A stretch of DNA of 64,000 nt from Membranipora membranacea (taxonomy: Eukaryota; Bryozoa; Gymnolaemata; Cheilostomatida; Membraniporidae), in the NCBI GenBank assembly GCA_914767715.1, contig OU612074.1, positions 2,867,501 to 2,931,500 on the forward strand. The letters are read 5' to 3'. The notes below the pieces were generated by a model. That model did no database searches, had not been told where the DNA came from, and was given only the letters and a program-made list of their open reading frames with translations. The translations under genes and the position numbers were made by a program. This document shows positions 17,429 through 44,086 of this stretch, in pieces (the stretch's first letter is position 1; every line of letters begins with the position of its first letter).

Positions 17429-17434
17429 TTTATT
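17429..17434 (-). terminator. Poly(A) signal of gene 1
   Basis: AATAAA on the minus strand, 28 nt past the gene 1 stop codon. It is the first such hexamer downstream and implies a very short 3' UTR. Confidence 0.6.
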
Positions 17435-17461: not shown

Positions 17462-17623
17462 CTATATGCGGTAAGTCTTAAATGTGCCGGTCAAAGGAGC
17501 TCCGCAGTTGCTGAATGGGCATCTCGGCTTGTAGCTGTAGTCGTTTCTCAGTTTGATGTTCTCGTCATTGTTGCATTTCTCACAATATATCATGTGACCA
17601 CAGGGAAGTCCAATATAATTCGC
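17462..17623 (-). CDS. Gene 1 exon 23: RING second half and stop
   Basis: Encodes LPCGHMIYCEKC, the central Cys/His ligands of an IAP-type RING. A 17-residue spacer follows, then CPFSNC, then GTFKTYRI and TAG. The end resembles the short hydrophobic tail of cIAP/XIAP RINGs, which takes part in RING dimer activity. Oddities: the last zinc pair is C-x4-C rather than C-x2-C, and the preceding spacer is longer than usual. Acceptor TTTTAAAG joins exon 22 in phase 0. Confidence 0.85.
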   Translation of the reverse strand, partial: ANYIGLPCGHMIYCEKCNNDENIKLRNDYSYKPRCPFSNCGAPLTGTFKTYRI

Positions 17624-20600
17624 CTTTAAAATGTCACAAATAAAACATGTTTAAGGTTTGTATTGGGGTCAATGAATTTTCATGAAACCTATATGGCTGA
17701 ATAGGTAATTTGAAACTAATTTGTGGAAAAAATATTTAATTGCAATATCATGGGCAGTTTATATTTTGTTGCTAATTACAATATTTATTACAATTACTAG
17801 GAAACAGACCAAGAGAAAGAATTATTCACGAATGAAAATATGCAGAACTAGCACCTGGCACAACAAATGATATCAGGAGTATCTAAGCCAATGCTTCTCA
17901 CATGAAACAATTGGATAAAGTGGAAGTCAAGCATGCGCTCATAACATTCACAGCAATCACCTCAGGCAATCATTCACCAAGCAGAGATTCGCAGTCAGCA
18001 ACCATACAGTGTCTAAGGATTGTCGCAAGTCAGTCTTGTCAGTCTCATAAACCAATTTGGCAAAAAATCAACCTTTCAAATTACCTAAAAAAATCACTAC
18101 TTACTTTTCTATGTGTTGTTTCGGTGTATTAGAGAGAATATGATCTAAATCATTCTCTCTGTTACCTTGGAAACTTTGATTAAATTCCTCTAGCCCAGTG
18201 ATGGAGTAAAGGTTAAGTTTGGACATGAGACGACCTGATTGAGATTGGTTACATTGATAAGCAAGATTCAACTTTCAACTCTAGGGATGGTGACATTTAA
18301 AATCACTTGTGCACAACCTGGCAACACGTGCGATATAAAGGGGGATTCTGCTAGAATCAGGCATTTGTGCATTACGTCAAGCATGATTTTGTTTCAATGA
18401 ATGGGATACTTTGATTTGATGTTGAAGATGCTTACCTCATATTGCATGCTGGGATACATGGCCTGCATCACAACAATGAACTCACCTCAGTAATCATTCC
18501 AGTCTTCATACGGCAGTATTTGCATGATCCCTCAGGTGCGGTGTTGAATTCTGACCGCTTGTCGTGCATCACACCTGGTGCTGGTGCGCTGAGGCTGTCC
18601 ATTCCAATTTCTACAATCATTTTGATGATACAGCTATAATATATATACCGTGCAAATTCAAAAGATTAACAGAGTTTCTACCGCATATCCGCTGCTGTCT
18701 GCACAAAGCTCCTGTATGGATAAAAAATTACCTCATACATATCCAAACTAAATGCATACACTCATTAAATGATACGATACCCTATGAGTAACCTTGATAC
18801 AAAGTGTATATGAGCGCTAGGCCACTCGGCGTTCAAGCATTTTCTTGAGAATACAGCAATAGGAGAAAATAATTGGTATGTTTAAATAGGCACTATATAT
18901 AGCAAAATTATTGATCTGTTCCTTACGTAAGGATCTGAGGTCCTCCTCTGGCATTCTCGAGTGCGAACTACCAGCGTCTGTGTTTATACTTTGTAATATC
19001 TGCTCTTCTACCTGTATTAATAAAATATTGAAACTTGTAACACTTTGAATTGATGCATTTGAAAGAATCAATTTATTATATGAAAATAATTAGTAAATGT
19101 AACACTATTCTATCATGAAAGTTTTCTGATTCAGTACCATCTAAGAATCTCTGTTGTCAGTGTTCTGAGTGAGTGGGAACTGTGGGAACTGAGTTCTCAC
19201 AAAGAAATATAGAGGGGGAACCTTTAGAACACAGTTCCCACTGGATTCCGTGCAAAAACAGTGTCAAGTTGTCTCTTTTGACCAGATATCAATCTTACTA
19301 TTACAGATCCATATTTATGCATAACTTGATCTAGAAATTGCAAAAAATTCTCAAAAGAATTTTCAACCCAGAAAATAGAGTTCCCACAAAGAAAAAAGTC
19401 CACTTAGACCACTGCATAGACTTTATAATAAACCTAGACAGGACACTATGCGGAGCAATGGCATTGAGGCACAGAGGCATTTAATTGTGGACGGCCTAAC
19501 AACATTGGAAGGTGTAGTAGCATTGGTGTTATCACTGACTTGAAGCTCATATACCAGGTTTTTTGTTGATAATTAGATCAACTTTGATGGATTTTGAGTT
19601 TGAAAAGTATAATAGATTTACCAGCTTGTTGTAAGCAGTTTGATACAAATTTAAGGCAAACAATTTTTTTGAAGACAAATTAACATCAAGCTGATAACAA
19701 GATGCTGCTGATTGTAAAGCAATTTTCAAACTCAAAATCTGATCAAAATTAATCGAACCTGAATTATGGACAGTAAATCAATGATAACACCAATGCTACT
19801 ACACCTTCCAATGACGTTACGTCGCCCCACAATTAAGTACCTCACTTTAGCTGTATATAGTGTCCTGTCTGGTTAGTCATGAAGTCTATGGTTGTCATTC
19901 ATCTTAGGATATACCTTGTGTTCTTTTTACTTATCTATTTTTCGCTATCAAATTTTGTTGCTGTGATGGCATATGGTTTCGTTTTGCTAGAAGTAGTAGT
20001 AAAATGAGCTCCTTCATGGTTTCTTAAATACTGTCTTTCATGTTGAATTTGCTTTAAGTTTCCTTTGGACGTATCATAGTTTTGCAGATCATTTTCACTT
20101 TCTTTCCAGTGTTTGTCTTATCTAGTCTTTCAAATTCCACAGATTGCTCTATATTTCTTCAGCCAGGGCCGTTTATGTTGTCATGCCAAACGTTTTATCT
20201 GTTTTTTTCCACTGTTGTACTTATTTATGCATAGGTTGGTTTCCACTGTGAGTACGATTTATCGTCACAGGGAGAGGGATTTTCTCACATTGTGTTTGCG
20301 ATATGCCTGCATTTCCATCCTATGCTCTTGCCATGCTCTCTCCTTTTCCTTAGTTTGTAAATCATTTCAAACTTTACTTTATAGTCTCAAGTTTTTGATT
20401 CTTTGTAATGTCATTGCTCATTTGATTAACCATTAATATTACTGGTTGAGCCGCTTTGATTTTCCCATCTTTCAAAAAGAACCCATTCATTCTCTCACAT
20501 CTTTCTGCCAGTTTGAAAGCTATTTCTGTTGAATGTAAGTTTTTGCTGGGTGAGACGTGTTTGTAGAAATAAGTATACTCGGTCATTTTGGCACAGTGGT

Positions 20601-23600
20601 AGGATGCCTGCCTCTTGAACGCCAGTCCCGGTTTCGATCGATTCCAGGGGGATCAGATAAGGACCATGAAAATAATGCGAGCCCCGTGTTATGCCTAGCC
20701 AGATTGGTTGGAGCACGCATATGAAAGACACCCACTCTGCCTCTTCGTAAGAGTAGCCGTACGCGGCAGGCATGGGTATAAAGAACCAAACCTCAGATCC
20801 GATGATCTGGAGCTGCAAGCTGATGCCGCTTGCGGTACTTCGCAGTACACATTGTAGATGTTAATGTAAATTATGCTAATCCAACGTTCAGAAATTCTTT
20901 GTTGAGTTCATACCCCAGCTCTTCGTTATCATCTTCGAGTTCAGGGTGTTTTTTCTAATTTTTCGCATACTACGAAACGTCGTTCCTTTAGATATAGTGG
21001 AATTAGCCTTACTCGGGTGTTCTACACTTCAGTCCTCATCCTTCATGAGGGCTGAAGCTGGCTAAATTTAGTACATCGAGGTTGTCATTCCTTGCGTTTC
21101 CTAGTTTGTCATCATTTCTGTTACCACACTTATTTTCAGCACCTTGAAGCAAGGCTTATGGTCTCAGGTTGTCATCATAGTGCTACGATTCTTCATCACA
21201 GAAATATTTTTTGTCATCCTGCCCTCGTTAGACAACTCACTTGTGTCTTGTTCGCTTGACCTCTTCATCACCTCACATCCTCACCAGCTCCTCCTTCCCT
21301 CTCTCTTTTAAACTGTTAAACTTATTGCCTTGGAAGTTTTGTGACCAAAATAGATAGCAGAGCAGATTCATACATTACTTTAAAAGATTGTCTTTGCTAG
21401 TAATTCTCGCCCATAATAATTGGTGTATTCACAAAACCTGCAAGGACTATAGAAATAAACGTAACGTTGGAATATTCATCACAATGCAAAAATTTTAGGA
21501 ACATTCCAATTTGACTAAATTACCTCTGGATCGAGCGGTCCTTTCTCCTCAATCTCATATATGACTTCTATCAGGTCTTTGATATTTTCAAGCTTAGGCC
21601 CACGGCTCTTCATGGCTAGTATTATCACTGCATCATCATGTCCAAACTTTTTGCACTCATCAAACATTGCTGGAATAATCAGAATATATTGTGTTGTTGC
21701 TGTCAAAGGAACGCAATCTATGAGGTTTAATGCTTGCACCCTTAGATTGCATGACAGGATAAATTCTACATTGTTCGAGGCCTTCCCTGGTACGACCTCC
21801 TCATGGCCGGCCCCAGCAGCACCTCTGTGCGAGCAACCTAAGACAACAGGACTCCATCAAACCTACCTTCAACCATTGTCTCTTTGTCCTGCTTGGCTTT
21901 TGCTTCTTTCTTCTGAGCCTTGGTGGTTCTGGTTGTCTAATAGTTGGTAAAAAAAAAGGAAAACACTGTTATTAAAGTACAATTATTTCAATTATTTAAT
22001 ATAGCCTATACAATAAAAAAATTAAAAAATTGATACGATATTCTTATTTTGAAGGCTGGTTGCAATAGGTTCTATTATTTCATGACCCTTGCTTCATAAA
22101 TACATTCACTGACTGTGCTATTGAGACCTGGAGTTTGTATCAGCCTGTTCTAATAGCGCGGATGTCTTTATGGTAATTCAGAGCATCAATCATAGCTTGC
22201 AGTTATTGCTTTCTATACACATGGAGCAATAATTACTAATCATGAATTTTAAAATCTGTGTAAACTTGATTATTTACTTTATCTGTTGGCATTCACATCG
22301 TGTATGCCGGTATAAAGATGGTGTGTCATGAGTGGGATAGGCAGTGGGCAGCAAATCATTTCCTAGTAGGTGTAAAATTTAGATAACACTTTTCATTGTT
22401 TCGCATTCCTCAACCTACTGTAATATTTATGTCAATGTATTGGTATCATGTTGCCAAAAACAGAGAGTGAAGTAGGATGGCGATGAAATATTACAAATGT
22501 CAAGAGCAACCCTCAAACATCACTCACGGGCCTCACACTAACCAATAAACCAATAACCATAAAATTCTCAGGCTTCACAGTAACTGGTTTTTCCAGTACA
22601 GTACAGATGACTAGTTTATGGTGTAAGTGTTTATGGGATAATACTCTGATAAATGTTATCTTTACCGATAAGTGTCATTCAAATGACAAACAATGCCAAT
22701 GAAGATAGATAACACTCATGGGAGTGATGACCATCTGGTGTACTGTGAGACACAGTCATGAGTATAACCTTTGGATAGTTGTTTGAAAATTATTTTGAAT
22801 TTGTCTCTTTGTCTGCAAAAAAGATGAATTTTCTTGCCTAAACAGCATATTTTCTTACACCAACTAGCTGTTAGTTTGATTTGGTGAATGATCATAAGGT
22901 TTGAAAGATGGCCCAGCTACAGGGGAATACTCCAAACGAGTCTTCCAACGTTTAAGAACATTGTAAGATTTACGAATTTCTATATCATATTACAAGTCAT
23001 TAGATCATTGGAGTGAAAACAGGCATGTTAAAACTGTACAAGGGTCAGAATTAAACGTGTTTATGTAGAATGATTTAATTCCTTCACTGACATGATCCTC
23101 TATCTAATTCAGTGAAAATACCCAATGAAAACAGCCGCAGGTCGGTCAAACATCAGCCCATTTAGCTACTATAACGTATTTCAAAACTACGCCAATGCAA
23201 TGCCTAATAGTAATAAAAATTTATGTGGTTCTCTTGAGGATTTTAGGCATTTTGGAGTTACGCTGTTTTCAAACCAGGAAAAGCAACTCCTAATCATAAA
23301 GATTAATTAATAATGCTCTTCTTAGAATATTGAGTTCAAATGCAATGTATAAATAGAAGGATATTTCTCGCTAATGGGATGGGCAGCTTGGCATTAATTC
23401 TCTTCCTTGTATATTCAATTATATGCTACAAGGAAGTGATAAATCATGCCACGTCTTGCAAAATTCACAAAATATAGCAGTCGATTAAATTCACAAATAT
23501 CCACAACATCCTAACGAATGGACGACAACATACGGGCTCCTCATGGGCAAGGGCGCAGTATCTGAGATAGATTTTGCTGAATAGCACCCCCCCCCCCCCC

Positions 23601-26600
23601 TTACCAACTGGGCCACCTCTTTCGCCTGTAATGAGCGAAATAAATAAAGCTACAAATAACTACCCAATTTTTCATATCGCACATCAAACTATACACCAAA
23701 GCTCAGTTGCTGGTTTTTCCAGGACGGTCCCGATGACTGGATGAATTGCTAAGTGATGCATTGATAAGATAAAAATGTCAACCGCAATCAAACCCACAAC
23801 CGTCAAATGCCAAAAATAATATGACAAAATGCCAACACAATCTGATTGTTATACATTGATATTACATTCCCCAGTGCCTTCCACATAGTAAGAGCAATGA
23901 GCGAGTCAGTTTTTATGTTATTAGCCAGATCAAATAATCAGGAGACCCAGGAGCTCATGTCATGGACATTTCCAATTCCGCACTGACACATCATGCATAA
24001 CTTTCTATACGCTTTCTCTAATTCTATACTTTCTGTTCCACATGCACTTCTATTATTTAAAGCATGAAAAGCGGATAATGAAACTTATTCCTCTCAGCTG
24101 AATCAAAGCAATAGTATTGATTTACTTTTTGTTTTCTCTCTATTGATTTTTGAGATGAAATCATGTAATCTGACTCTGAGGAATTATATTATTAGAACTT
24201 TTCTCTGGGGTTATTTCCCCTTACCGGGGAGGGGGCATCAGACTAGGATTATGCACGAGTATACTCAAGTAGTAACAGGGAGCGACTCTCCTGTTACATC
24301 ATCTATACTTCTTATACAAACTTTTTACCGAAATTCAAGGGTTGCAGTCAAATTCAGAGAAACCTAAACCGGGAAAGACAGATTATCAAGCTGTGTGAGA
24401 TACGTCACAGCAAAGTTCCACTCTTATAAAATCACAAGTACGCCCATTATGGTTTGTTGTCCCTGCATATTCCCTATCCCCTTATTTATAGCTGATCTGG
24501 GGTATAGTACTAGGTGAGGATTTGAAAGGGGTTACCTTTTTATTGGCTGGTGTTCTGGAGTGAACCTCACTCACATACTCTTCACCCTTCTTCTGTAGTA
24601 CATACTCACACTCTGGGAACCACCTGAGCAAATAAAGTTTGATTGATAATCAGGTCTATACAAGTTTGGACATCTGGGTTCACTCGATGACCTTCTTATC
24701 AAAGCAATTCCTTTTTATCGATAATACAAAGGGATATGATGATAACGATTGAAATGTGACTGAATATTGATTGTGTCGTGGTAACAATCAAGGAGTAACA
24801 ATCAACCAATTGTCTGTTGGTTAAAACGGTTGATTAAATTCAGGTAGTCTTATCACTCGACACATCCCGAAGCATGGACGGCAATATATTGGTTGCGTTA
24901 AGGACAAGGCTGCAATTGCTGAGCCAGATTCCTCTCTGATCGTTACCAAACAGTATTGGATTCCTCAGAGCAAATATTTGTATCAAACTTCACATTGTTC
25001 TTATTTGACGTCCCCATTTGACAAAATTGTTATAATTTTTATGACTAGTTATAGCAGGCCCTTCACAGTTAGGATTTGATACCGCATCAGTAAACAGTCA
25101 ACTTGCACACTCAGGTAGTCAAGTACATACTCTAGTGTATGATATTTGAAAAGTGTGGAAGCTTCCATCAGTAGGTGGTCTTAATAATTGTGTACTTCTA
25201 AAAGTTTTCTGTAGTTTGTTTTAACGATATTTGAGCGCATAATATGTGCTCAAATATCGTTAAAACAAACTACAGAAAACTTTTAGAAGTACACAATTTA
25301 GAGATCTCAATGATTATTTGATCTAATAAGTTTTGTGTTTGTAGAACTGAATTTAAATAGGCCTGCAGTCAATTAGGTACTAACAAGGAACCTTTTGTGT
25401 TGATTGATTGTTATTTCAAAGCTGTGTGTAACTCATGGGAATTCATGATGTTTTGTCAATTATAGCTCAACTCATATTGTGTGAATCAGAAAAAAACTAT
25501 TTCCAAAGAAGTAAAACTTCACACTTCTATAATGCAATTTCATAGAAGTGAATAAGCAAAAGATGGAGGAAACTGTTTAACATTTACAGCATAAAGCGTG
25601 CGACATTGGTGAATATGATGCGAAAGACTGAAGGTGGTGGTCTAAGGGGCGCCGTGGTGTGACTGAAGCACCATGTGGACAACGCACAAGTGACTCAAAG
25701 ACAAAGTTTGAGAATTTAAATATAACTCATAAGTCTCAAACTCACCTAGCATGCTCCTCCCAGGCTATATCTGTAGTCGCCCATTCTCTGATACCACCAG
25801 CACAATAAAAACATCGCACCTGGTCATCGAAGCCGGTGTAGTAAAAACCTACAAATCACCAGTATATATATTAGAACTTAACTCAAATAATTATCTGGAC
25901 ATTTGTAGAATGGATGAACGATTTGTGAAATGCAGTGCAGCGGGGTGAACTATGCTGGTGTGCATTGATTGTGTGGTGGGTAGCATCTTGGTTGTCTTCG
26001 GCGTAAGGACAATACAACTCAACTGCATGGATGGTTGGTTGATGGGTAGTTATGCAGCAACTGAGTATAAGGAACTGGGAATATTGATCATAAAGGTGCT
26101 GATATTAAAACAAATGAAACTGGTTGATATTGAAAGAGGCCAGGAATGGGCAGTAACCTGTTGCATGGTGTAGGGTACATATCTGGTGGTGTACGTGTTC
26201 GGGGAGTGGGGGCTAGTTCCAAGAGTCCATCACTGATATGTTATTTTTGTACCGAGAGTTTGGTATATTTTGATAATGGTCTGTTAGCAACTAGCAAGCG
26301 TGTTCAGAATTGGATGATCAGCCACCAAAATTTTCATGGAGTAATGTCCTTGTTGATTATTATCATAGAATGGCCTGCAAAATGCGAGGTGCTAACAACA
26401 TGACAGCGGGTTCAGCTCTTGTGGCGCGAGAAAGCTTTGTTTACCTGCTTCACACAAGTCATTAGCGAACACAGGAGATGCAGCAGGCCAGCGATTATAT
26501 GTCTTTAGTCTGGAGGCATCAGGAGCATATTCTATCATAGCTGCTCTGTTAGTAGATATACCGAGTGCACTACCATCTGTCTCAACACTACCATCTCTGC

Positions 26601-29600
26601 TTGTCCTCATTTCTGTTAACAAATATTATGTGCTACATCAGGTATTGTGTAACTTTGAGGCTTCATACCCAATCATCTGATAACTCTGGTGTGGCCTTTA
26701 GAAAGTTAGATGACTTTGAGTGATAGCAGGTTCTAAATGCTTCAATGCCATTGCATCCCAAATAGAATGGGATCACATTCAAGGATAAAGCCTTGATCTT
26801 GAAAAAACATAATATAAGGAAATCAGGAAGCCAGTGAGGCCATGATACTGCCATTCTCCTTTCAATCACAAAGAAAAAAACTTATTGATCATTGAGTGAG
26901 AGTATGATACGTACTGATACACCGTTGCCATGCACTGGATAAGATATGCCACAAGGAAAAAAGTGTGTCAACAATCGCTGGAAGGGTTGACACCCTCATC
27001 ACACTGTGAATGTTTAAGTCAAGCCCTGTGTTTAGTTCACCTGGTTGTTTATACAGATTGATATTCTTCATGTCATCTCTGGTCAGTTTATGACTGATAT
27101 ATTCTCTGTTTCCACAGTTTAAGCCCTTCACAAATCTGCAGAAAGCGAAAGACCTGGCGTGCTCGAGCATCGGTACATCATCTTGCTCCCATCGGTGGAG
27201 GGATCCTCGACAGAACACACACTGAACTCTGTCATAGTCATCTAGAATGGTAAAAAAAGATCGGTGGTGTCCAGTAAATCATGTTCATGACTGGTGATTG
27301 AAATTTTTAATTTCAACAATTAAAGTACCCTAAATCATTGATACTATGTAATGTAAAATTTAAAGAATCAATCAGAGAAATGGTGTAACTAGTTGGGTAC
27401 CCAAAACCATCCAGAGTGTATCTTTGAATCGGCTCTTCTGTAAGTTTGGGGTTTAGAACAGGACATCCAAGAATCCAGCCTGCGTCAGAAAGATTTGCAA
27501 TCAGTAAAATTAGCAATACCTACCAACAGAATAGAATCCAGCCTGAGCCAACTTCACACCACTAAGCTGGTTATCATAGGGCCAGTTTACTAGAAAGGAT
27601 TTCCTTCTCTGTCGCTCATCTACCATCAAAGACTCTCTCTCCTCTAGTGTCAACTCATTAAGAACGTAGGTGAGGAACTCCCGGGGGCTCATCTCATCTG
27701 AGATATAAAGACATCATGCTAGAGACACCAACAAGCTTGAAGATAGGGACTTCACACCCATACAAGAGTCAACATGAATAAAATGGGAGCCTGAAGTAGA
27801 AACTCAAATCTGTTGTGGTTTGTCAGAATATACAATAAGACATAATTCTCACCTAGCTTCTTCTGCAGTGAAAGCGGAAGTAGTGGGTTGTGATTATCAG
27901 GATACCGTGGTACAGTATAGACAGGAACGACTACTCTCTCTGGGGCGAAGTCATGTGGTACGCTGGTTATACCTCTCACCACCTGAAGGTACTCATCATC
28001 ATCAAAGTCAGGGTCTTCTCCATCAAACATCTTCTTTGCTGGTACAGACTGCAGACACTGCTGCAGTTCTCCATTGTACACTACGGGGTGCACTGCCTTG
28101 ATTAATGAACATTCCTCAGTGTCTGACACTGTGACATAGTCACAGAACTCTGAGCTGGGGTGTTGGCTGTCTGTGGTTATCCTTCTTTCTTGAAGATCTG
28201 CTTCAGGGATGAGGATGTAGTCTGGTGTCTTCAACACAATAAAGTCATCGGCTGGGTGGCTTATCTGAAGATCTTCAGTTGGTAGTTCACTTTCATCATC
28301 TGTTGGACGGCATATGACTGAAGAATGCTTCACTCTTCCTAATTCACAACCATTCAGGAGTGAATCAATAGAATCTCCGCTCTCCTGCGCTGAAAGGGTA
28401 TGCTGTTGGTTTTTGGTGGTAGCATCTGTGCTGCTGCCTCTGCTTAATAGCTGCTGTCTCTTGTTTTCGTTCTCTTTTGCTGCGGGCGCTGCTGTTCCTG
28501 CTGCTGCTTCTTCTACTTCCTTGTTGCTGTTGTATCCTGTTTGCTGCTGTTTAGATTTATCTTCTTCACAGACAGACAGTCGTGTTGTGCTGACGATGTT
28601 GTGTTGCTGCTGATTTATGTCTGCCTGCTGTCGGTGATGATCAGTGATGTGATTTCTTTGGTTACAATGATGTACATTGTGTTGTTGTTGGTCCTGTAGT
28701 TGTTGCTTGTTGCAGTGTGAGTGTTGGTGATCACAACCTGAATCAAGTTTACTCTCTGAAAATAAACAGTAAGTGGTCATGTTCCCAAAGAAGTCAGAAG
28801 CTATTGCTGTCACCCATGATCAGCTGCGCATGATTTCTCTTTCTCTTTCTGTTCGCATCAACCAAGAGAAAAATGTAGTCTGAGGAAAAGTCACAACTAT
28901 CAGTCAAGGAAAAAAATGTCCTCATAACTCAGAGAAAACTTTTTTTAGATTATTTCCATTCAAATTTGATAGAATTTCAATTTTCAAGTCTGAGGAAATC
29001 CTTGCAAATCTGATATATTTATTGGTGGAAAGAGTTTAACTATGAACAAGCAATTTTAACAAGTGGAAATGCTAACTGATCAATGCTTGATAGACTGCTT
29101 TACCTTGGCTTGGTTGGGTAAAACCATGTAAGAAAGTCTCCTTGGCTGCTTCAGCTAAAGTCCGGGTGCCAAAAACCCGACTCTTGGTAAGCCGCGTCAG
29201 CCATCGGAGTTTTCTCTAGCAACAGAAACAAGGTTTGAAATTTGAAGGAAAACAAGGTGTCATAGCAACAAGATTTCGAATCCGACAAGTTATGCAATAT
29301 TGAATGCAATATTAATGCAGATGTGTCTATTATACTCCATATGTGAGTGTTTGTATGGTTCACCCAGGGGAAATAACATCAGCGAAGTTTTGTTCAGCTA
29401 GATTGGGGGTGACGTAATTTGAATCAGCGCATATTTTCACTAGCCAGGTCGGAGTAAATATATTACAGAGATTGAATAAATGTTAGCTAGACATAGACGC
29501 CACTATGTTGGGCTTTGGCGTGAGGCTAAAGCTGCGTTTACATTAGGCCGTCTTTTGGCCCAGTCTTGAGTCTGACCTACAAATTACTAAGACGGAGGCT

Positions 29601-32600
29601 GAAACTGTGTAGTGTGAATAACAAAAACGGTTGACTGACCTTGTCTGAAATGCTTTTAAGACGGTGTCTGGCAATTCGAGCACAATACTGCCCTTTGTTC
29701 TATCACTCACATTTATTTTCTCTGATACTGACATTGGCTAAGCCGGTGCTATGTAAACACATGCCAGTCTCAGACTCTGGCTCAGACTTGGAGTTGAAGA
29801 CTGCTCAGTCTTGAGTTGGTGGCCAGCTGACGGAGACGGCCTAATGTAAACGCAGCTTTAGATTTCCTTTTGATAATAACTTTCTCATCTAAGGTATGTA
29901 GCTATTCATCAGCAAACAGGTACCAAAATATAAAAAAAGTCATCAATGATTCAAGCCTGGGAACCACCATAGCTTTTTAATCAATCTGTAACTCACCCTT
30001 CTTGATGACGCATGCTGTCCCTTTGCTGCTCTGACAGGTCGGAAATCATTCTTCATTGACTCTGAAATACTCTAAAAAACATCCAGTTTCCTTTACTGTG
30101 AGTGCTATGAAGAGTTTACAATGGCATCACCAAGACATAGCGATAATCTTGAATTGATGGCAGGATCTAGTTTATACAACAATGTTATATGCCAAACTTT
30201 CAGACACGGTGATGATGATTCTTATCCATGTATAGAGCTTCCGTTATCATTTTTTGAAGAGGATGATTTTAACTGACATTTGCTCTATTTAATTTTCTCC
30301 AAATAGTTTTAAATAGGCTCAATCTAAAGATGCTATAAATCCATCTAAAGACCACAGACCAGATTACAGTCGCTCTTCTTGGGAGTTGTCCTTAGGATTA
30401 GATTGATAAGAGACCATTTTTGTGATTATTTACCGCAATATGATAGAGCTCCAAAAATTATAAAAGAGGAGTGCAAGTTGTTGATACCAATTGACAACAT
30501 AAGGTACAGAACTGAATATGACTAAGCAGCATTCGTTTTACAGAATAAAAAAAGAGAGTTTCATCTGAGCCATTGAATTTAGACATGGCTAGGAGTGCAG
30601 CATGTGTTCTAGTGCACTGAGTGGAAGGGCTGGCAAAGCTAGATAAACTATCTTACATACACCCTGTATGGTTAACCCTGATGCAATCTTGATGGAATGG
30701 TCAATATTATGCTATAGTAAGTTTATCCACGCTTTTTATAGCTTACCTCATTACTTGTAGGATTCTGATTTTGGAGATCTATAATCACAAACATATCATG
30801 TTTACCACAATCACATGAAAATGGATGAATAGATAGATGGATTCACCAATTGACTCAGAAAAAAAACACTTGCAAGTTCTTGGCTAAGTGACAGCCCAAA
30901 TTATAGGACCAAGCGCATTACACAAGTTATCTTAAATGTTGTATTCAAATATATAACTACTCAATCATTGTCGCAGGATGGTGCGAATAGGTATATTGCA
31001 GGCTTAAGATAATTGAATGTAACAAATGTGAGAGAAAATAAAGAAAGAAATAGTGCAATTCAAATCAATTCAAAGTTTTACAAAATTCATGAGTCAACCC
31101 TTCACTAATATTTCACCTATAGCAAACATTGTAGACAATGTGTACATGTATGCCCCTAACATTTAAAATATGTGTGATTGTTCAGGGTAGACACTGACAG
31201 GTACTAACAAATATATAAATCTGAGTACCTATATGCGTGAGTGTAACACGGCCTAATGTAAGGCATACCTTGCTTTATCTTAATAATGAATGCTTTGACA
31301 GTCTGGAGAGAGGAAGGCCCAATCAGTGACTGAGTCAGGGATGTATGGTGGCGGTGAAGTGACACATGGTTCCCGTGGTTATCCACCATCAGCTGCTGGT
31401 GAGAGGGACTCTGTATAAAAAGGTGGAAAAAAAACATGGCAGAACCCAACTTCAGGAGGGCAGAAATAATTTACCGTGTACTTGCATCCATTTTGAATTG
31501 ACATTGATCAGTTTTGCCTGATTAGACAATTTTTCTTCTGATTCATAAGAAGGGAATCAGTAGCCCACTTGTATCTATAACACACCTGGTTAGTTAGACA
31601 TGATCTCGGTTTTCCTTTTCTTCTACTCAACTTGGATTCCCACACTCTCATGCGTGTTTTTCTAGGTGAAAGTTTCTTCTTTCCCAGAAGGCTCTGAAAG
31701 AAATAGAAGAAGTTTTACTATCTTATTAAGTGTGTGGTTAACTAATTTCACTCGCTCGAAACTGCGGTGCAAGCCGTGTTCATACATTATTACTTAAAAT
31801 ATCAAGTGACCTTAAATTGCATAATCGAAGTAATTACTGCTGAAGCTGCTTAGTTGGCCCGTGATTAGTATTGCTGACCATGTTAACGATACAGTAAAGT
31901 CTGTGACGAAGCTGCCAGTAAAAGTTGGAAATTTTTATTCATACCGGTTTTATCTTGATATCCCTTCTAGAACTCTGGTATCTGAGCTCCTCATCGTCTT
32001 CGCTGTCATTGCCATTTTGATATTCTGCAGGGTAGTAATCAAAGGAGTGAATGGTAGCTGACCCACCTATCGTTGGTTAAGGAAAATAGGATAATGTTCA
32101 TAATAATAAAGTTAAATGATAAAACACTCAATAAAATTGTTGTACTCAAATGGTTACTGTGAGTTTTACACTATTGTGAGGTAAAATATTAAAATTCAAA
32201 GACACAATTATCAAACTCAGCCTTTGGCTTAGATAATTATCATGAGCTTCAGCTTCATGTCTGTCGTCAAACTCTTTGGTGTTGACGCCTCTAATATCAC
32301 TAATATATGTTAAGGTTTATCGTAATTATCACTATTAGGGGGAAGAGTCTGTATTAGAACAATCATCAATAAATTTGGATTTTTGGATGTGTTACCCCTT
32401 AGTGTAGATTTGAAATCTTTTGACATGATTTAGAAATTTTGTCATACAAGCTGTTTGTCTCTCAGGATGTTTATGTTCGAGACAATAACGTAACAGTTTG
32501 CTGTATGAGTGAACAACAAATTGCCATTACAATGCCAATTTTGTAGCTAAAGGTCCATTGCTATGTATGTATTTCAAAATTAATATGTGAATTTTTAAAA

Positions 32601-35600
32601 AAGAGTGGCGAGTGTGATCATGTCTACCACTACCCGGTAAGATTATCTCAAACTTTACAGCCCGCAATTTCTGAGCTGAGCTGAGTGTAAGATAATGTAT
32701 ACCATGTATCAATATATTAGTGTCACCCATAGATTTAATAATAAACTTAGACAGGACACTAGATGGAGCATTAGCATTGAGGCGCTGAGGCATTCAATTG
32801 TGGGCAACGTAACAAAGGTGTTCTAGCATTGGTGTTATCATTGAATTGCAGCTCATACACCAGGTTATTTGTTTATAACTCGATCAAATTTGTTTGGATT
32901 TGAGTTTGAAAATTACAATAGATTTAGCAGCTTGTCCTGAACAGTTTGATTTAAATTTTAGACAAAAAATTTCATTGAAAAAGAAATAACGTTCAAGCTG
33001 ATAACAAGATGCTGCTGATTGTAAAGCAATTTTCAAACTTGAAATCCGATAAAAAATTGATCGAGTTATGAACAAAAAACCTGGATTATGGACAGTAAAT
33101 CGATGATTACACCAATACACTATATACAGCTGAAGTGAGGCACTTAATTGTGGGCAACATAACGTCATTAGAAGCATGGGCCCCTGGGACTTACATGCCT
33201 TACTTTGCCAATGTCCAGTATGGGGTGGTTGATACTGGACATTGGCAAAGTAAGGCATGTAAGTGAAGGTAAAGGTAAAATAGGTTAATATGCAATACAA
33301 CAAAAATTCTTTTTATATCTCAACATTAGTTTTGAGGTTTCACCAGTCCCCCAAGTGATAGCTGTCCAACCATACCACTTGGTCAGGTCAGGGAAGCATA
33401 ATTATCACATCCTCTGAAGGACGTTGGATAATGCTATCAGGATATCAGTGATTGAAAATGAATTTAGTCAGGCGATGGAAAAAACTCACCACTCCTAAGT
33501 GCATTCTTTTTGTATCTCAACATTAGTTCCAAGGTTTCACCAGTTGCCAACTCAAAAGCAAATATAAAACGCCACTGGGCTGTAAGGAGCTGCAGCTGCT
33601 GATCCGCTGTCAGTGAGTCGAGTATAGCCTTCACAGACTCTGTATGACCTCTAAATGCTGCTATGTGTAGAGGTGTGTTACTCTCCGCCATGAGAAGCTT
33701 CAGTCTGTCTGAAGATTGGAGAGATGAGAGTATAGTTCTCATCATCTCAGCCTGCCCTCTTTCTACAGCTTTGTGTAGGGGAGTTGGTTCAGCAGAGCCC
33801 CGTGTGAAGAAACTTTGCCTGCTGTAGGATTCTCTCCTGTAGAATTTCTTCAGGATTTGCAGCTTCTTTTCCTCTGATACTTTACTGAGTAGATTTCTCA
33901 GCCTCTCCATATCTGGATACTCTGACCAGTTCACATACTCACTCATCATATCCTCTAGTTGCTCTGCTGGTGATGCTAAAAATATGGTCAGTATAATGGT
34001 AAGTTAAAATCAACATTACATTGATTTATACAGGGTGGGTATGAGGGGAGTAATACTCTTCCTTCCCTACCTTCCTTACTTGGTGATTCGTGGTGTATTT
34101 CTTGATTCTCACACCAAATGATCTGATTTTCTGATCAATTATAGTCCCAGACCAGTAAATGAAATTTTTTTGAAAGTCTGACTTGCATTAGCATTGAAGC
34201 ACTGAATTGTGGGCGATGTAATGACATTGGAAGGTGTAGTAGCATTGGTGTTATCATTGAATTGCAGCTCATACACCGGGACATTTGTTTATAACTCGAT
34301 CAAATTTGTTTGGATTTTGAGTTTGAAAATTACAAAAGATTTAGCAGCTTGTCCTGAACAGTTTGATTTAAATTATAGACAAAAAATTTTGTTGAAAGAG
34401 AAATAACGTTCAAGCTGATAACAAGATGCTGCTGATTGTAAAGCAATTTTCAAACTTGAAATCCGATAAAAAATTGATCGAGTTATGAACAAAAAACCTG
34501 GATTGTGGACAGTAAATCAATGATAACACCAACACCCTATATTCAGCTGAAGTGAGGTACTTTATTGTGGGCAACGTAACGTCATTGGAAGCATGGGCCC
34601 CTGGGACTTACATGCCTTACTTTGCCAATGTCCAGTATGGGGTGGTTGATACTGGACATTGGCAAAGTAAGGCATGTAAGTCCCAGGGGCCCATGCTTCC
34701 AATGACGTTACGTTGCCCACAATTAAGTGCCTCACTTCAGCTGTATATAGTGTCCTGTCTAGCTTTATTATTAAGTCTATGGAGTCACCATATATTCCGT
34801 ATCCTTCATTGGCTAAAATTTATGTATTCAGCTCAGTATATACAGAATTGTGGATCGACAGTTACACAGCCTTCACACACTTACTTGTAGCCAAAATAGG
34901 TCAGGATCAATCTGGAATACTTATATTCTTATAAAGACACAATATACAGCAGTCACTCAGCACAGTTTGTGTGTGACACATTCATCGGTATTATCGGTGT
35001 TTTATCCAATGGGAACACTGTATAGCTGTCAAACTACATGATAGAATTATATTCTTAGCTAACAAGATACAGAATATTAACATTCTCTACTTGAGCTGAC
35101 AGAAAGATCTGTGTGACTATTACTGCTGACAGTAATATAGTAGAGGTCATACAAATAAATACTCACTTCTCGGGATCATCTTCACACACATCTCTACATC
35201 ATAAAAGAACAAGTTTATGTTAAACACGCATAGAAAGCTAAGTAAACATGACACACATTTGACTAATAACCTAAACTGCAAAATAAATCCCAAATTGAGT
35301 GAAGGGAAGAATAACTCTATCAATACAGAGTATAACTTAAATAATATATATTTGGCTTTTATTTGACAGAGGATGCCATTGACTGGTTAAGATAAACATT
35401 ATGATAAAGGTGTACTTCAAGCTAACAGAATATCACCAGCCTCTAACTGATGAGCTGATATGAAACTCTGGGTCTATGATGGCTGATAGTCTCATCATGG
35501 TATGTGTAGGACACTTACTAATTATATGTTCTTTTTGTTAACCATAGGCTACTATTATACTCACTTATATATATAGGATCACACTCGTGCGAGAGGTTTA

Positions 35601-36524
35601 ATATGTTGGTTCTCCTACATGATTCTACATCATGTGAGGAAAAGTCTATAAAGAAGAAGCACAAGAAGGGATGCGATGATAAGGATTGTTTGATAAATCA
35701 TTTAGAATATCACTACCGCTGGTCGCTACAGCATGTATTTCATCAAACTGACTAAACAATGTGATGATGCTTATATCTAACTATAAACCTATCTTCATCG
35801 CCTCGATGTGACTGTGTATGACATTTACTAATTATATGTTCTTTTTGTTAACCATAGGCTACTATTATACTCACTTATATATATAGGATCACACTCGTGC
35901 GAGAGGTTTAATATGTTGGTTCTCCTACATGATTCTACATCATGTGAGGAAAAGTCTATAAAGAAGAAGCACAAGAAGGGATGCGATGATAAGGATTGTT
36001 TGATAAATCATTTAGAATATCACTACCGCTGGTCGCTACAGCATGTATTTCATCAAACTGACTAAACAATGTGATGATGCTTATATCTAACTATAAACCT
36101 ATCTTCATCGCCTCGATGTGACTGTGTATGACATTTACTAAGTGTATGTTCTTTTTGTTAACCATAGGCTACTATTATACTCACTTATATATATAGGATC
36201 ACACTCGTGCGAGAGGTTTAATATGTTGATTCTCCTACATGATTCTACATCATGTGAGGAAAAGTCTATAAAGAAGAAGCATAAGAAGGGATGCGATGAT
36301 AAGGATTGTTTGATAAATCATTTAGTGTATTTCATCAAATTGACTAAACAATGTGATGATGCTTATATCTAACTATAAACCTATCTTCATCGCCTCGATG
36401 TGACTGTGTATGACATTTACTAATTGTATGTTCTTTTTGTTAACCATGGGCTACTATTATACTCACCCAAAAATGAAGTTCTCCGGAGAACTGGTGGAAC
36501 AAAATCATCTTTAGTGTCTCCCAT
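17462..36524 (-). CDS. Ankyrin-BIR-BIR-UBA-RING protein (IAP-family E3 ligase)
   Basis: Hand-built model of 23 coding exons, 1193 aa, 3582 nt. Exons, 5' to 3': 36524-36467, 36265-36185, 35955-35875, 35645-35565, 35193-35167, 33975-33490, 32057-31945, 31693-31586, 31410-31269, 30778-30747, 30071-29997, 29215-29104, 28755-27853, 27697-27524, 27241-27041, 26612-26445, 25848-25746, 24623-24575, 21936-21867, 21669-21524, 19011-18927, 18610-18486, 17623-17462. All introns are GT..AG and all junctions keep phase. IAP proteins bind caspases or signalling partners through BIR domains and ubiquitinate them through the RING. The role here is inferred from the domains. The Met at 36524 is conserved in the paralogue (MGDTxDDF) and has a purine at -3 and G at +4. 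The exon stays open upstream of it, so a start in an earlier exon is possible. Confidence 0.88.
18486..18610 (-). CDS. Gene 1 exon 22: RING first half
   Basis: About 42 aa. A Ser/Pro/Ala-rich linker leads into GSCKYCRMKTGMITE, which supplies the first two RING cysteines (C-K-Y-C). The donor is GAG|GTGAGT. Fifteen residues of this exon plus the start of exon 23 carry the domain to PCGH, about five residues longer than in vertebrate cIAPs. Confidence 0.85.
18927..19011 (-). CDS. Gene 1 exon 21: acidic linker between UBA and RING
   Basis: 28 aa (VEEQILQS.. PEEDLRSL) with no recognised domain. Acceptor TTAATACAG, donor TTAC|GTAAGG. Phases 0 and 1 fit both neighbours. Confidence 0.75.
19168..19415 (-). 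repeat. Interspersed repeat of about 290 bp, copy 2
   Basis: Reverse-complement relative of 9511-9798. It lies in intron 20 of gene 1 and directly abuts the MITE that follows. Confidence 0.65.
19416..19890. mobile_element. MITE of the CATAGACTT family, simple form
   Basis: Complete non-coding element whose ends are CATAGACTT....AGACAGGACACTAT and the complement. A second inner pair (TTGGAAGGTGTAGTAGCATT near 19507-19525 and its complement near 19793-19812) lies inside. This form lacks the 214-bp palindrome found in the 34-kb and 62-kb copies. Confidence 0.75.
20577..20860 (+). mobile_element. tRNA-derived SINE
   Basis: Head with A box (TGGCACAGTGGTAGG) and B box (GGTTTCGATCGATTCC), followed by a tRNA-unrelated body of about 200 bp. 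It sits in gene 1 intron 20 on the opposite strand. The 3' end is not sharply defined. Confidence 0.65.
21027..21057. other. Short stem-loop
   Basis: CTTCAGTCCTCAT pairs with ATGAGGGCTGAAG (one G-T pair) around a 5-nt loop, in gene 1 intron 20. No function can be assigned. Confidence 0.5.
21524..21669 (-). CDS. Gene 1 exon 20: UBA domain
   Basis: 49 aa: MFDECKKFGHDDAVIILAMK, then ENIKDLIEVIYEIEE. The spacing of hydrophobic positions fits the three-helix ubiquitin-associated domain found between BIR3 and RING in cIAPs and XIAP, with KFGHDD at the usual MGF loop. Family knowledge says this domain binds ubiquitin chains. The call rests on pattern and on its position between BIR2 and the RING. 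Acceptor TTATTCCAG, donor GAG|GTAATT. Confidence 0.75.
21867..21936 (-). CDS. Gene 1 exon 19: Lys-rich linker
   Basis: 23 aa rich in Lys, Ala and Glu (KAQKKEAKAKQDKE), probably a charged helix joining BIR2 to the UBA. Acceptor CTATTAG, donor GAAG|GTAGGT. Phase 0 to 1. Confidence 0.75.
24575..25848 (-). CDS. Gene 1 exons 17-18: core and C-terminal part of BIR2
   Basis: Exon 17 (25848-25746) encodes GFYYTGFDDQVRCFYC and REW..AWEEHAR. Exon 18 (24623-24575) encodes RWFPECEYVLQKKGEEY. With exon 16 they give a full BIR with zinc ligands C, C, H and C. Tryptophans are kept at the REW, AWEEH and RWFP positions. Those are the groove residues that hold IAP-binding tetrapeptides in XIAP/cIAP BIR3, so BIR2 is BIR3-like. 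The donor of exon 18 is TAT|GTGAGT. Confidence 0.88.
25186..25298. other. Perfect 51-bp inverted repeat (hairpin)
   Basis: 25186-25236 and 25248-25298 are exact reverse complements. Pairing continues into the 11-nt spacer, leaving a loop of about 3 nt. It lies in the intron between BIR2 exons 17 and 18. Transcribed from either strand it would form one long perfect hairpin. Confidence 0.85.
26445..26612 (-). CDS. Gene 1 exon 16: inter-BIR linker and BIR2 N-terminus
   Basis: 56 aa. A polar linker is followed by RLKTYNRWPAASPVFANDLC, the first helix and RxxTYxxWP motif of a BIR, ending EAG. Acceptor TTAACAG, donor GCAG|GTAAAC. Phase 1-1. Confidence 0.88.
27041..27697 (-). CDS. Gene 1 exons 14-15: BIR1
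   Basis: Exon 14 (27697-27524) encodes an acidic helix (LTYVLNELTLEERESL) and then RRKSFLVNWPY...LAQAGFYSV. Exon 15 (27241-27041) encodes DRVQCVFCRGSLHRWEQDD, MLEHARSFAFCRFVKG and a tail. Zinc ligands C, C, H and C are all present. The Trp that follows the EHA(K/R) motif in peptide-binding BIRs is Ser here. That suggests a type I-like BIR without a normal peptide groove (inference). Confidence 0.9.
27853..28755 (-). CDS. Gene 1 exon 13: Gln/His-rich segment with conserved 75-aa module
   Basis: 301 aa, phase 1-1. The N-terminal half is rich in Gln, His and Asn and is probably disordered. A module at about 28312-28085 (PTDDESE.. PTEDLQISHPADD.. VLKTPDY.. ERRITTDSQ.. SSE.C.YVT.SD.. AVHP) is shared with gene 2 at 44540-44303 at roughly 70 percent identity. 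I recognise no known family. Tyr motifs (TPDY, CDYVTVSD) could be signalling sites (inference). The exon ends CTAG|GTGAGA. Confidence 0.85.
29104..29215 (-). CDS. Gene 1 exon 12: N exon
   Basis: 37 aa, basic, with core FGTRTLAEAAK. Homologous exons occur twice in gene 2 (58933-59038, 54677-54839) at the same place just before the Gln-rich exon. Phase 0 to 1. No known domain. Acceptor GTTGCTAG, donor CAAG|GTAAAG. Confidence 0.8.
29530..29857. mobile_element. 328-bp MITE of the AGCTGCGTTTACAT family
   Basis: Terminal inverted repeat AGCTGCGTTTACATTAGGCC and complement, flanked by TAA on the left and TTA on the right. It shares its outer 15 bp with the 708-bp element at 12686-13393. It is non-coding and lies in gene 1 intron 11. 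Confidence 0.7.
29997..32057 (-). CDS. Gene 1 exons 7-11: charged linker
   Basis: Five exons: 32057-31945 (acidic, NDSEDDEELRYQ), 31693-31586 (very basic, GKKKLSPRKTRMR.. SRRKGKPR, a possible nuclear localisation signal), 31410-31269 (His/Ser-rich), 30778-30747 and 30071-29997 (basic). Phases run 1-0, 0-0, 0-1, 1-0, 0-0 and fit both neighbours without a stop. No known domain. The 32057 acceptor has a weak pyrimidine tract and is the least certain junction. Confidence 0.7.
32727..33265. mobile_element. CATAGA-family MITE, rearranged right end
   Basis: The left end (CCATAGATTTAATAATAAAC, AGACAGGACACTA) is intact. The right side carries the palindrome's first arm and core (33100-33265) but not the far terminal repeat. 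It lies between the ankyrin exon and exon 7 of gene 1. The 300 bp on its left (32430-32726) also precedes the same MITE at 56.9-57.2 and 61.1-61.4 kb. Confidence 0.65.
33300..33345 (-). pseudogene. Decayed 3' end of an ankyrin exon
   Basis: ATTCTTTTTATATCTCAACATTAG and nearby bases match the 3' end of the functional ankyrin exon 190 bp away (33490 onward). The frame contains a stop and the donor is gone. The same relic sits at about 60180-60225 in gene 2. Confidence 0.6.
33490..33975 (-). CDS. Gene 1 exon 6: ankyrin repeats
   Basis: 162 aa in one exon. A helical lead-in (LEDMMSEYV.. LLSKVSEEKKLQILKKF) is followed by about three ankyrin repeats with TPLHKAVERG and TPLHIAAFRGHTESVKAILD. Ankyrin repeats are protein-binding scaffolds. 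Acceptor TATTTTTAG, donor AGTG|GTGAGT. Phase 1-1. The copy at 60365-60850 differs at only about eight residues, all in the N-terminal half. Confidence 0.9.
34187..34790. mobile_element. CATAGA-family MITE with 214-bp palindrome
   Basis: The left terminal repeat is truncated. The right end (GTCCTGTCTAGCTTTATTAT.. CTATGG) is intact. 34537-34750 is one near-perfect palindrome of 214 bp with a short spacer (GGGGTGGTTG). Open frames in it are palindrome artefacts. It lies in gene 1 intron 5. Confidence 0.75.
35167..35193 (-). CDS. Gene 1 exon 5: 27-nt microexon
   Basis: Nine codons (K-MCVKMIPR) between GATGTAG and GTGAGT, phase 1-1. A homologous 27-nt exon at 62455-62481 precedes the ankyrin exon of gene 2 at the same place, which supports it. 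Confidence 0.7.
35521..36460. repeat. Tandem 310-bp repeat, three units
   Basis: Units start at about 35521, 35831 and 36141. The first two are nearly identical. The third has a 28-bp deletion (310 to 282 bp) and a few changes. A partial fourth copy (about 40 bp) borders exon 1. Each unit carries one 81-nt exon on the minus strand. Confidence 0.95.
35565..36265 (-). CDS. Gene 1 exons 2-4: triplicated 81-nt exon
   Basis: Exons 36265-36185, 35955-35875 and 35645-35565, each 81 nt and phase 1-1, with an identical acceptor (CTTCTTTATAG) and donor (AA|GTGAGTATA). Each encodes FSSHDVESCRR.NILNLSHEC and DPIYI. The first copy has Ile where the others have Thr. Any one, two or all three can be spliced in without a frame change. 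No known domain. Cys and Asp/Tyr positions are conserved. Confidence 0.8.
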
Positions 36525-41345: not shown

Positions 41346-44052
41346 CTGACAAATAATAGTCTCACATAATCATACTTTATCATTTGGGAGAATAAGTCCC
41401 ATAAACTCTGCGATCCTGTTGTTACAGTTACCTAGCCTGGCTTAGACCAGAACCCTACAGGATCTAAAGACAAAGCCGATTAATGGAAGGCAGTTTGAAG
41501 CAGTGGAATGATTTTTCAATAGATTGAGTATATTATATTATTCGGTTTACAGTGCCAACCAGACTAAGATATCTAACTCAGTCAAGGACACAACTAAACA
41601 TACAATACATACAATGCGATGACCGGTAAGCCTAATAAAAGAAAAAGTTTTATATATATAAGATGTATGAAATTCTCACAACGTTTCTAGAGGATCTTGG
41701 ACCTTAATAATAAGTATCTGCTCTTGGAAACATAGACACGCTTGATTTTAACACAGGGTGAATCCAAATAGCATCCTGAATGTAATCTTCCGATGTTCTG
41801 TATCTTCTATGTGTTGCGCTGTGTTGTCCTAGCCTAGGGTCTATCAGCTCCTGTCGGTTATAATATAACAAACATAATGTATTATTGTAACATTAATCGT
41901 TATTACTTATGGCAAATATTAAATGCTCCTTACATTAATATATTACAATGAGAATTTTGATGCCAAAAACATCTTCAACAAGTTTATCTAGAAATAGTCT
42001 AATTATTACACAGCCCTACTAAACCTGCTTTCTGCCGAATAATGGTAAACACATTTTATATCTAACCTAGAATACAGAAATTAAGCAGTTCAAGAGTTCC
42101 AGTCATGGCTGCAATATTAAAGCACCATACTTTAGAAACCATAAGAAGACTAGTCAGTATCGAATCCAATACTGTGGTTTTAGTAGTCTCTGGAACAATA
42201 TAAACTCATGTGGCCTATTGCTCAGATTCAGCACTGCTGGTCATGTCATGTTGTCCTGGGTTTGATTCAAGGTGGGGAGTTTTTTGGCCTACTAGTCGTA
42301 CAATGTACTATGTACAATGTACTATGTACAATGTACTGTTATTGGTTGTAAAACTAATGTGACTTGGCCTGAGTGAGCTGGTAATAACAAAGCTGAAACT
42401 CGACCGAGAGGGCAATAATACCCGTTGGTGAGGCCCGGGTTCAGTACCAGATCCACCCCTAGTGGTAACAGGCACGGTAGATACATGTATTGTTTTTCAC
42501 TACACTGCTTTTCACTATTGGTTTTTCACTACAGCTGCCGAGCTACTGATTTTGAACATCTCAACAAAAAATGTAATCCGATGTCGCATCATTATTTCAA
42601 AGAAATGAGGCAACACGGATTAAATAAAAAAACTTTTTGTTGGTTCTTTTGGTGAGTTTGTACTAGTATGTCTGATCATGATCATCACATCATTTGGTGC
42701 ATGTTATAGTGACAATTTTGCTGAGCTGTTCACTTTAAGTGGCTTGTCAGCTTTTCAGCAGTGTACCATAAGTAAATATTTACCGACTCCGTTACAAAAC
42801 CTCAACACTATGAAGTATTGAATACAAATATGTCTGGTTGAGAGTACCCTGACCTATGACTTGGTCATTCTTACCTATCAGTGTTGACAAGACAGTGTCC
42901 AACTTCGATACTATGTCTACAAGCATTAAAACATGACATGAACAAAAAAACTAAGATTGATGTATTCCACTGGATTGGTTTAAGATGGGTTAACTTCGAC
43001 CAGGATATTATGGATTTAACGTGCCCACTATATCGTTCAAAAAATTTGTATCTCAGACAGGCAGAGCCAGATAACCTTACAAGATAATTTGGATTGCTTT
43101 CACCGAATTGAATTGCACTGATTGTGGATTGGTAGAAATCAGACACTGGAGAGGTGTTCAACCAAGGGTGCTGGGGCTGGGACAATCAACTCAACTCAAC
43201 TCCTGCGGAATCAATCACCTGGCAGTGAGAAGCAAGCACGCTTCCCGATTCCATCATCACACCATCCCCGAAAAGAATTAATGGCTTGATGGCGTTAACT
43301 AGCACGCCCGCTATTTAATTAGATAGAGTTGTATTCTCCCATCTCACAGCACAGTCTGTTCCACCATCACCACCCTATGCAACCAGCGTACATTTCAGGG
43401 CTATTGGAATAACATGGCCTATTGCTGGGGCACCTTGCTGAGGCTAAATCAGCTTTATCAAAGAGACTTATTCCGTCAATACTATATTAATCAAGTCAGG
43501 TTAATTTAGCCTACCGTAGCTATACAAAGGAACTTACTGTTTGTACGTTGATCAATAGTGTCCATCTTAGCTCCCATACCTAACATAAAAAGAACAATCA
43601 TGCTAGTGTTAACCAACTGAGCCAGCTTGAAATGATGATAAATCAAAAGACTGAGCTAAATACACCTTCCCCATTGCCCCTCTTTACAATATATGGGATG
43701 ATGATGTCACACGACCTTTGTGTGATACAGATAATAATATGCTTACTTCCAGTCTGTGATAGAACTTCTGTAATCTGACTTTGAAATTCTGTTTGGAGAG
43801 ACATAACCAGAGTATGTAAAGCAGTAATCTGACTGAGTGCCACACGCATCATATTTTTCAGATTCTCCAGCGCATTCTCGTCTGAATCAAAAGAAAGATG
43901 CGTGTCAAATATCCTGCCAGATGAGCCAAACAAAGCATACACGCCATAGGCTGCATCACTCATTTGTCATTTGTCATTTGCCAACCAAAAAAGAGAGAAA
44001 ATAAAATATTCAAGAGGCAATGTAAATAATCGTGTGATATATATGAAAAAAT

Positions 44053-44086
<34 letters not shown>

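Follow-up and report, generated by a model that had tools for sequence, protein, structure and literature searches.

Locus and exon chain

The window analysed here is a stretch of 64,000 nucleotides (nt) from the bryozoan Membranipora membranacea (assembly GCA_914767715.1, contig OU612074.1, positions 2,867,501 to 2,931,500 of the forward strand). Its minus strand probably holds one animal gene, at a rough probability of 0.6, coding for an inhibitor-of-apoptosis (IAP) RING ubiquitin ligase with N-terminal additions: an ankyrin exon, a basic exon and a long exon that we call Q. The proposed order, to which the same probability applies, is ankyrin repeats, basic exon, exon Q, a type I BIR (BIR1), a type II BIR (BIR2), a UBA-like bundle and, at the C-terminus, a RING. 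The layout appears to be a new arrangement of known parts, a variant within the IAP ligase family, and an IAP-type RING ligase plus extra N-terminal exons is the best-supported reading of the region.

Exons were rebuilt from simple splice-site scores (based on consensus frequencies) in combination with domain evidence. Sixteen minus-strand exons can be chained from an ATG at 36524 to 18927 with every junction in phase and no stop codon, yielding 951 amino acids; the RING open frame (17650-17465) adds another 62 and brings the total to 1013. Since the choice of exons was partly guided by phase, the phase matches are not independent evidence at each joint. A first-pass annotation of this DNA had set the same end points (ATG at 36524, stop ending at 17462) and had reported a repeated exon, both of which our reconstruction confirms. 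The product of 1193 amino acids given there was not reproduced, and its phase-consistent exons hold from the ATG to the pre-RING exon but not beyond, as the RING frame is unreachable by a canonical acceptor. The parts are listed below in the order of transcription.

36467..36524, minus strand: putative first coding exon, MGDTKDDFVPPVLRRTSFL, phase out 1, open frame with a strong donor
36185..36265, minus strand: repeated exon copy 1, 81 nt, phase 1-1
35875..35955, minus strand: repeated exon copy 2, 81 nt, phase 1-1
35565..35645, minus strand: repeated exon copy 3, 81 nt, phase 1-1
33490..33966, minus strand: ankyrin exon, phase 1-1, two clear repeats between divergent stretches, Pfam Ank_2
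29997..30061, minus strand: candidate exon K, short and basic, bridging phase 1 of the ankyrin exon and phase 0 of exon R
29104..29215, minus strand: exon R, Arg/Lys-rich, phase 0-1, relatives in ankyrin copies A and B
27853..28755, minus strand: exon Q, Gln-rich first half, variable middle, near-invariant C-terminal block
27524..27697, minus strand: exon B1a, pre-BIR segment and first half of BIR1, seven metagenome relatives
27041..27241, minus strand: exon B1b, second half of BIR1, Pfam BIR, three relatives at 61-75% identity
26445..26612, minus strand: exon B2a, linker and first part of BIR2, phase 1-1
25746..25848, minus strand: exon B2b, BIR2 zinc-binding core with type II groove residues, Pfam BIR, PDB matches to BIRC2 and 'Apoptosis 1 inhibitor' BIRs
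24575..24623, minus strand: exon B2c, C-terminal end of BIR2, RWFPECEYVLQKKGEEY, supplying the last zinc Cys in frame
21867..21936, minus strand: putative charged linker exon, TTRTTKAQKKEAKAKQDKETMVE, phase 0-1, from splice sites and phase alone
21524..21669, minus strand: UBA-like exon, three-helix predicted model
18927..19011, minus strand: putative pre-RING exon, ending in PEEDLRSL, phase 0-1, weak donor, from splice sites and phase
17465..17650, minus strand: RING open frame, 62 codons, stop at 17462-17464, tail GTFKTYRI, Pfam zf-C3HC4_3

The three 81-nt exons are contained in a 310-bp tandem repeat at 35503-36325 (2.7 copies, 98% matches), and an open reading frame related to the first coding exon is found in an upstream copy (62717-62962). 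The ankyrin exon has an in-phase alternative acceptor 9 nt upstream. Exon K is the better of two candidate 1-to-0 exons at the thresholds used, with no conservation seen. Exon B2c was the single match of a pattern search over 21000-25760. The pre-RING exon resembles the helix that lies directly N-terminal of the RING in IAPs. An AATAAA signal stands at 17434, 28 nt beyond the stop codon.

BIR and ankyrin domains

Pfam was run on a joined translation of 890 amino acids, comprising the chain from the ankyrin exon onwards without exon K. Matches to BIR (1.3e-36, two stretches), Ank_2 (2e-08) and zf-C3HC4_3 (1.1e-06) were all above the cut-offs. The best PDB sequence matches of the BIR pair are BIRC1 (NAIP) at 1.3e-26, 'Apoptosis 1 inhibitor' (which we take to be DIAP1) and BIRC2 (cIAP1). 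BIR1 reads CVFC-16-H-6-C (C-x2-C-x16-H-x6-C) and has Ser at the position of the type II groove Trp; it is classed as type I. In the translation, BIR2 shows the pattern CFYC-16-H-6-C and carries the residues G, I, W, D, E and W of the XIAP BIR3 groove; accordingly BIR2 looks type II, or BIR3-like, and given these groove residues it should bind IAP-binding motifs. The IAP/BIRC family is defined by at least one BIR with C-x2-C-x16-H-x6-C, and here two are found; its type II groove is seen in BIR2, judged from residues alone.

The three minus frames of 2.5-64 kb, scanned with Pfam and with stops read as X (exon-split domains can escape such a scan), hold no further BIR or RING, nor does the whole minus strand by pattern search. 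The same frames show ankyrin at three places, no NACHT or LRR, and no other families at the cut-off. No CARD was seen at E<=1 in the minus frames of 17.0-37.0 kb, and no Pfam family on the plus strand in three frames of 2.5-17.5 kb and two of the three frames of 22-37 kb. A death-fold domain N-terminal to the ankyrin repeats was considered and rejected: Pfam gave none at the cut-off, and by eye the stretch looks like a divergent ankyrin unit.

Exon Q and its probable joint to BIR1

Exon Q codes for 300 amino acids, as the first-pass annotation had stated, but the Gln-rich character claimed for this segment applies to the first 140 residues (15% Gln, against 9.7% overall), the rest being richest in D, V and P. 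Its C-terminal block, DDEYLxxVRGITSxPHDFAPERVVxPVYTVPRYPDNHNPLLPLSLQKKL at 28000-27854 on the minus strand (in short, VRGITSVPHDFAPERVV..PVYTVPRYPDNHNPLLPLSLQKKL), belongs to no Pfam family. A protein search with the open frame of exon Q returned seven metagenome relatives. Among the eight sequences (window plus relatives) 45 of the 50 positions 274-323 of the window frame are invariant, compared to a mean column identity of 36% over the whole alignment. Near-copies occur among the relatives (P0004/P0006, P0013/P0016), and as a consequence this conservation does not amount to eight independent tests. The conservation ends at a Gly whose codon begins the splice donor; block and Gly are kept in all eight, window included.

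On the other side of the joint, a search with exon B1a gave seven metagenome relatives at 72-94% identity. Similarity begins at the Asp-Glu-Met that follows the acceptor in all five relatives extending upstream of the Met (in protein letters), the start motif being DEM(S/A)PREFL, and the Asp-Glu is kept in 6/6 sequences that show it, window included. The intron between exon Q and B1a measures 155 nt and has neither AATAAA nor ATTAAA. When this region was shuffled with both coding anchors kept, 19 of 2000 shuffles produced an in-frame join of whatever quality, and a single one (1/2000) a join equalling the real one. With the acceptor fixed, an in-phase donor scoring at least 5.05 (the real donor score rounds to 5.1) appeared in 22/5000 shuffles and one scoring at least 2.5 in 117/5000. 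On these sequence grounds exon Q is very probably spliced to the BIR1 exon B1a.

Two-BIR IAPs of similar size are common in animals. One could read the region as three genes: one for the ankyrin part, one for Q, and a short IAP of the ordinary kind that starts from an ATG within B1a (MSPREFL...). Such an ATG does stand in frame 5 nt into the exon, and gene callers began relatives P0014 and P0017 at this Met. Still, we regard three genes as improbable: some 155 nt would have to accommodate a promoter, a 5' untranslated region and the terminus of the Q gene, or else an untranslated first exon is required. The exact end of the Q block at the donor, the rarity of an equally good join among the shuffles and the Asp-Glu retained ahead of the Met also argue against it.

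Several Q-type exons start with (D/E)SGC just after the acceptor (at about 28725-28755, and in the exons at 58634 and 54484, all minus strand), as do relatives P0002, P0004, P0005 and P0007; the motif is similar to the DSG of phosphodegrons. With regard to origin, the introns and the tandem multi-exon genes point to an animal source; a viral source was rejected after scans of viral contigs with exon Q, the ankyrin exon and the Q alignment found no relative, and a prokaryotic source after scans of genome contigs with the IAP part and the Q alignment likewise found none; in both scans records near the genome of the window may be excluded.

UBA-like exon and RING end

Modelled alone, the exon between BIR2 and the pre-RING exon is predicted to form three helices (residues 2-8, 13-23 and 30-43), with a predicted local distance difference test (pLDDT) score of 82.9 for the best model and 81.9, 67.8, 61.6 and 55.1 for the remaining four. 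Foldseek returned five weak matches (E 3.5-9.7), two of which are UBA-type (UBAP1 SOUBA and USP13 UBA). Pfam gave no match at E<=1, and a comparison to PDB sequences at E<=10 gave no UBA and five unrelated matches. The model lends weak support to a UBA-like three-helix bundle at 21524..21669.

The RING frame alone matches zf-C3HC4_3 at 2.4e-08 (26.1 bits in the raw minus frame, against a cut-off of 27), and its nearest PDB sequence is the BIRC2 (cIAP1) RING at E 0.0041; structure prediction of the frame was uninformative (pLDDT 38). All eight Cys/His ligands are present, spaced C-x2-C-x11-C-x-H-x3-C-x2-C, 17 residues, C-x4-C, followed by the tail GTFKTYRI. The final pair CPFSNC and the Gly after the last Cys are unlike those of other IAP RINGs. 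In the cIAP1 RING, six residues separate the sixth and seventh ligands.

A TAA lies immediately 5' of the codons of the first CxxC (17640-17670, minus strand), and although 71 AG dinucleotides lie between this point and the preceding exon, not one of them gives entry to the RING frame without a stop. This might point to a decaying IAP copy whose RING end is no longer spliced, leaving no functional ligase, and the altered CPFSNC spacing together with the long interval between ligands six and seven would fit. We consider decay very unlikely, however. Elsewhere the exon chain is open and keeps its phase, and ligands, IAP tail, stop codon and AATAAA are all in place; an error in the sequence, or a splice site that is not canonical, would also account for the defect. 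The missing acceptor can possibly be attributed to any of the three (sequence error, unusual splice site or decay), and within the one-gene model we infer an intact RING end. In the same 17640-17670 interval, CCTTAAAC recalls a U12 branch site.

Taken together, the order ANK-BIR-BIR-UBA-RING put forward by the first-pass annotation is recovered by Pfam on the minus strand for ankyrin, both BIRs and RING; by its residues the second BIR looks BIR3-like, as proposed there. Its UBA is weakly backed by the helix prediction and not by a sequence profile. The putative C-terminal RING has a domain-model match and an IAP-type tail, though with unusual last-Cys spacing and no in-frame AG acceptor. The label of a cIAP/XIAP-type ligase fits the types of the BIRs and the IAP-like RING match; it does not fit the number of BIRs or, for cIAP1/2, the missing CARD.

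Ankyrin copies and the likely joint to exon Q

Ankyrin copies are located at 60.9-60.3 kb (A), at 56.6-56.0 kb (B) and in the gene itself (C, exon 33490..33966). The exon of C is 96% identical to A and 63% to B. All three precede, on the same strand, relatives of exon R and of the first part of exon Q, and the splice donor after the ankyrin exon is identical in each. Exon R is open in phase 0 alone, again in all three copies, which implies that an upstream coding exon is needed. A 29-nt exon whose splice sites are good would link ankyrin to R in phase in copies A and B; it is missing in C, where exon K would serve.

Rates of non-synonymous (dN) and synonymous (dS) change were obtained for these exons. 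Exon R gives dN 0.35 and dS 0.92-0.94 against copies A and B, and exon Q gives dN 0.43-0.44 and dS 1.1-2.1 against the same copies and dN 0.56 and dS 0.85 against a further copy at 44 kb; between A and B the differences in R and Q are too few for such an estimate. With dN below dS, exons R and Q are, by this measure, changing as coding sequence relative to their older copies. For the core of the ankyrin exon, C against B, dN is 0.15 and dS 0.31; the tail of this exon yields 0.38 and 0.30. When 116 changes, as many as observed, were placed neutrally, the frame remained free of stops in 93 of 5000 trials. On the sequence evidence we judge it likely that the ankyrin exon is joined to exon Q in one gene.

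Several observations weigh against a single gene, in addition to the lack of a UBA sequence match and the unreachable RING frame described above. Each metagenome relative is one open frame, and in no case does it combine ankyrin with BIR or Q with BIR; by the length of their longest contigs, the Q relatives match B1a relatives in 0/7 cases; contig matching is uninformative as a test of linkage, since relatives of B1b, the other half of BIR1, also match in 0/3. A Q-type exon at 44.87-44.1 kb (minus strand) occurs with no BIR in the frames of 37-50.5 kb. AATAAA signals lie between ankyrin and exon Q at 31939, 29717 and 29023. Exon R of copy B (54677-54839, minus strand) is without the donor that serves A and C; downstream, an in-phase donor is next met at 54677. 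Over the whole ankyrin exon, C against B, dN is 0.29 and dS 0.32, and over the N-terminal flank 0.44 and 0.35. The B-C ankyrin block also has a dS of 0.32 where R and Q have 0.9-2.1, and B and C cease to be similar 26 nt beyond the ankyrin donor. The younger age of this block indicates that recombination has moved it.

Recombined ankyrin blocks may reflect head-swapping within a single gene family, or else an ankyrin gene of its own that lies upstream. In the latter case the IAP gene would be real and include exon Q (Q-BIR-BIR-UBA-RING), and the ankyrin block at 33-36 kb would be a separate, recently duplicated gene or fragment. The 97% identity of C to A across 1.26 kb next to old R and Q exons fits this, and so do the early end of the B/C similarity, the 3.4-kb intron between ankyrin and K with its AATAAA at 31939, and an exon K without conservation support. 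Given, on the other hand, that all three copies stand ahead of R and Q-type exons on the same strand, with an identical donor, and that exon R with its single open phase needs a coding exon upstream, we hold a separate ankyrin gene to be unlikely and retain the single gene with an ankyrin head.

Comparison with known ligases

The closest systems are the IAP RING ligases XIAP, cIAP1/2 and DIAP1/DIAP2. They share with the window gene the BIR zinc pattern and a type I BIR followed by a type II BIR; a UBA-like bundle between BIR and RING and a C-terminal RING with an IAP-type tail are predicted for the window gene as well. Unlike them, the window gene adds N-terminal ankyrin and Q exons, and in its RING ligands six and seven are separated by 17 residues and the end is C-x4-C. 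XIAP has three BIRs; cIAP1/2 have three BIRs and a CARD. Having only two BIRs, and no CARD at E<=1, the gene belongs to neither type. NAIP/BIRC1 is the best PDB match of the BIR pair, but the window gene has a RING and, in the minus frames of 2.5-64 kb, no NACHT or LRR, and is therefore not a NAIP-type NOD-like receptor (NLR).

Ankyrin repeats upstream of a RING are also known from the plant XB3/XBAT ligases and animal Mind bomb, which are not known to have a BIR. The window gene differs in its BIRs and its IAP-like RING; the XB3/XBAT31 RING model reaches only E 0.3.

In oyster and hard clam, tandem duplication and domain shuffling have produced new IAP layouts, which resembles the present case: 14 architectures are described for oyster and seven types for clam, with the IAP RING of hard clam in one last exon (PMC8917759, PMC7831173). 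The word 'ankyrin' is absent from both main texts, whereas the window gene has such a domain. A study of the demosponge Dysidea avara counts 15 BIR sequences, and a ctenophore study describes invertebrate NLRs as lacking BIRs. A literature search within one open library found no ankyrin-BIR protein among the papers listed.

Proposed working

In the mechanism that we propose, each biochemical step of which we infer by analogy, the RING would take E2~ubiquitin and the C-terminal tail would dimerise it. The groove of BIR2 would bind caspase- or Smac-like proteins that expose an IAP-binding motif. BIR1 and the invariant block may dock an adaptor, with the block perhaps belonging to the BIR1 docking surface, and the UBA-like exon would hold ubiquitin chains. 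The ankyrin part might recruit a further target or partner. We tentatively suggest, at somewhat less than even odds, an IAP ligase whose target is chosen by the ankyrin domain that it carries, with the nearly invariant block of about 50 residues fused directly to BIR1. The ligase would stay fixed while ankyrin heads, their flanks changing fast, are exchanged on it through tandem duplication and recombination upstream.

The point at which cells die, or mount an immune signal, is governed by IAPs. If the suggestion is true, ankyrin-headed IAPs would be a family of ubiquitin ligases (E3) with variable recognition, and would show animals attaching separate recognition modules to one ligase core, as mollusc IAPs gained other layouts. 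The contrast between 45 of 50 kept positions and the 36% of the full alignment suggests that a strong contact or form of regulation awaits discovery at the block beside BIR1, making it a concrete new target for study.

Other features of the window

The Q-type exon at 44 kb has been retained with its end block diverged; by eye, it sits among coiled-coil-like exons in a gene at 43500-45300 (minus strand). Further upstream, at 50500-58400 (minus strand), the Q-type exons of copies A and B are followed by repeated open frames of 80-90 amino acids with motifs such as PGDPPKVMDDANL and ITVYRPGEEDLEQDRRHLCG, for which dN is below dS in 11 of 12 computed pairs. A dispersed repeat family with inverted arms, resembling miniature inverted-repeat transposable elements, occurs at 32371-34681, 19415-19897, 57185-57505 and 59809-62076; these repeats surround the ankyrin copies and are also found in the intron that separates the UBA-like exon from the pre-RING exon.

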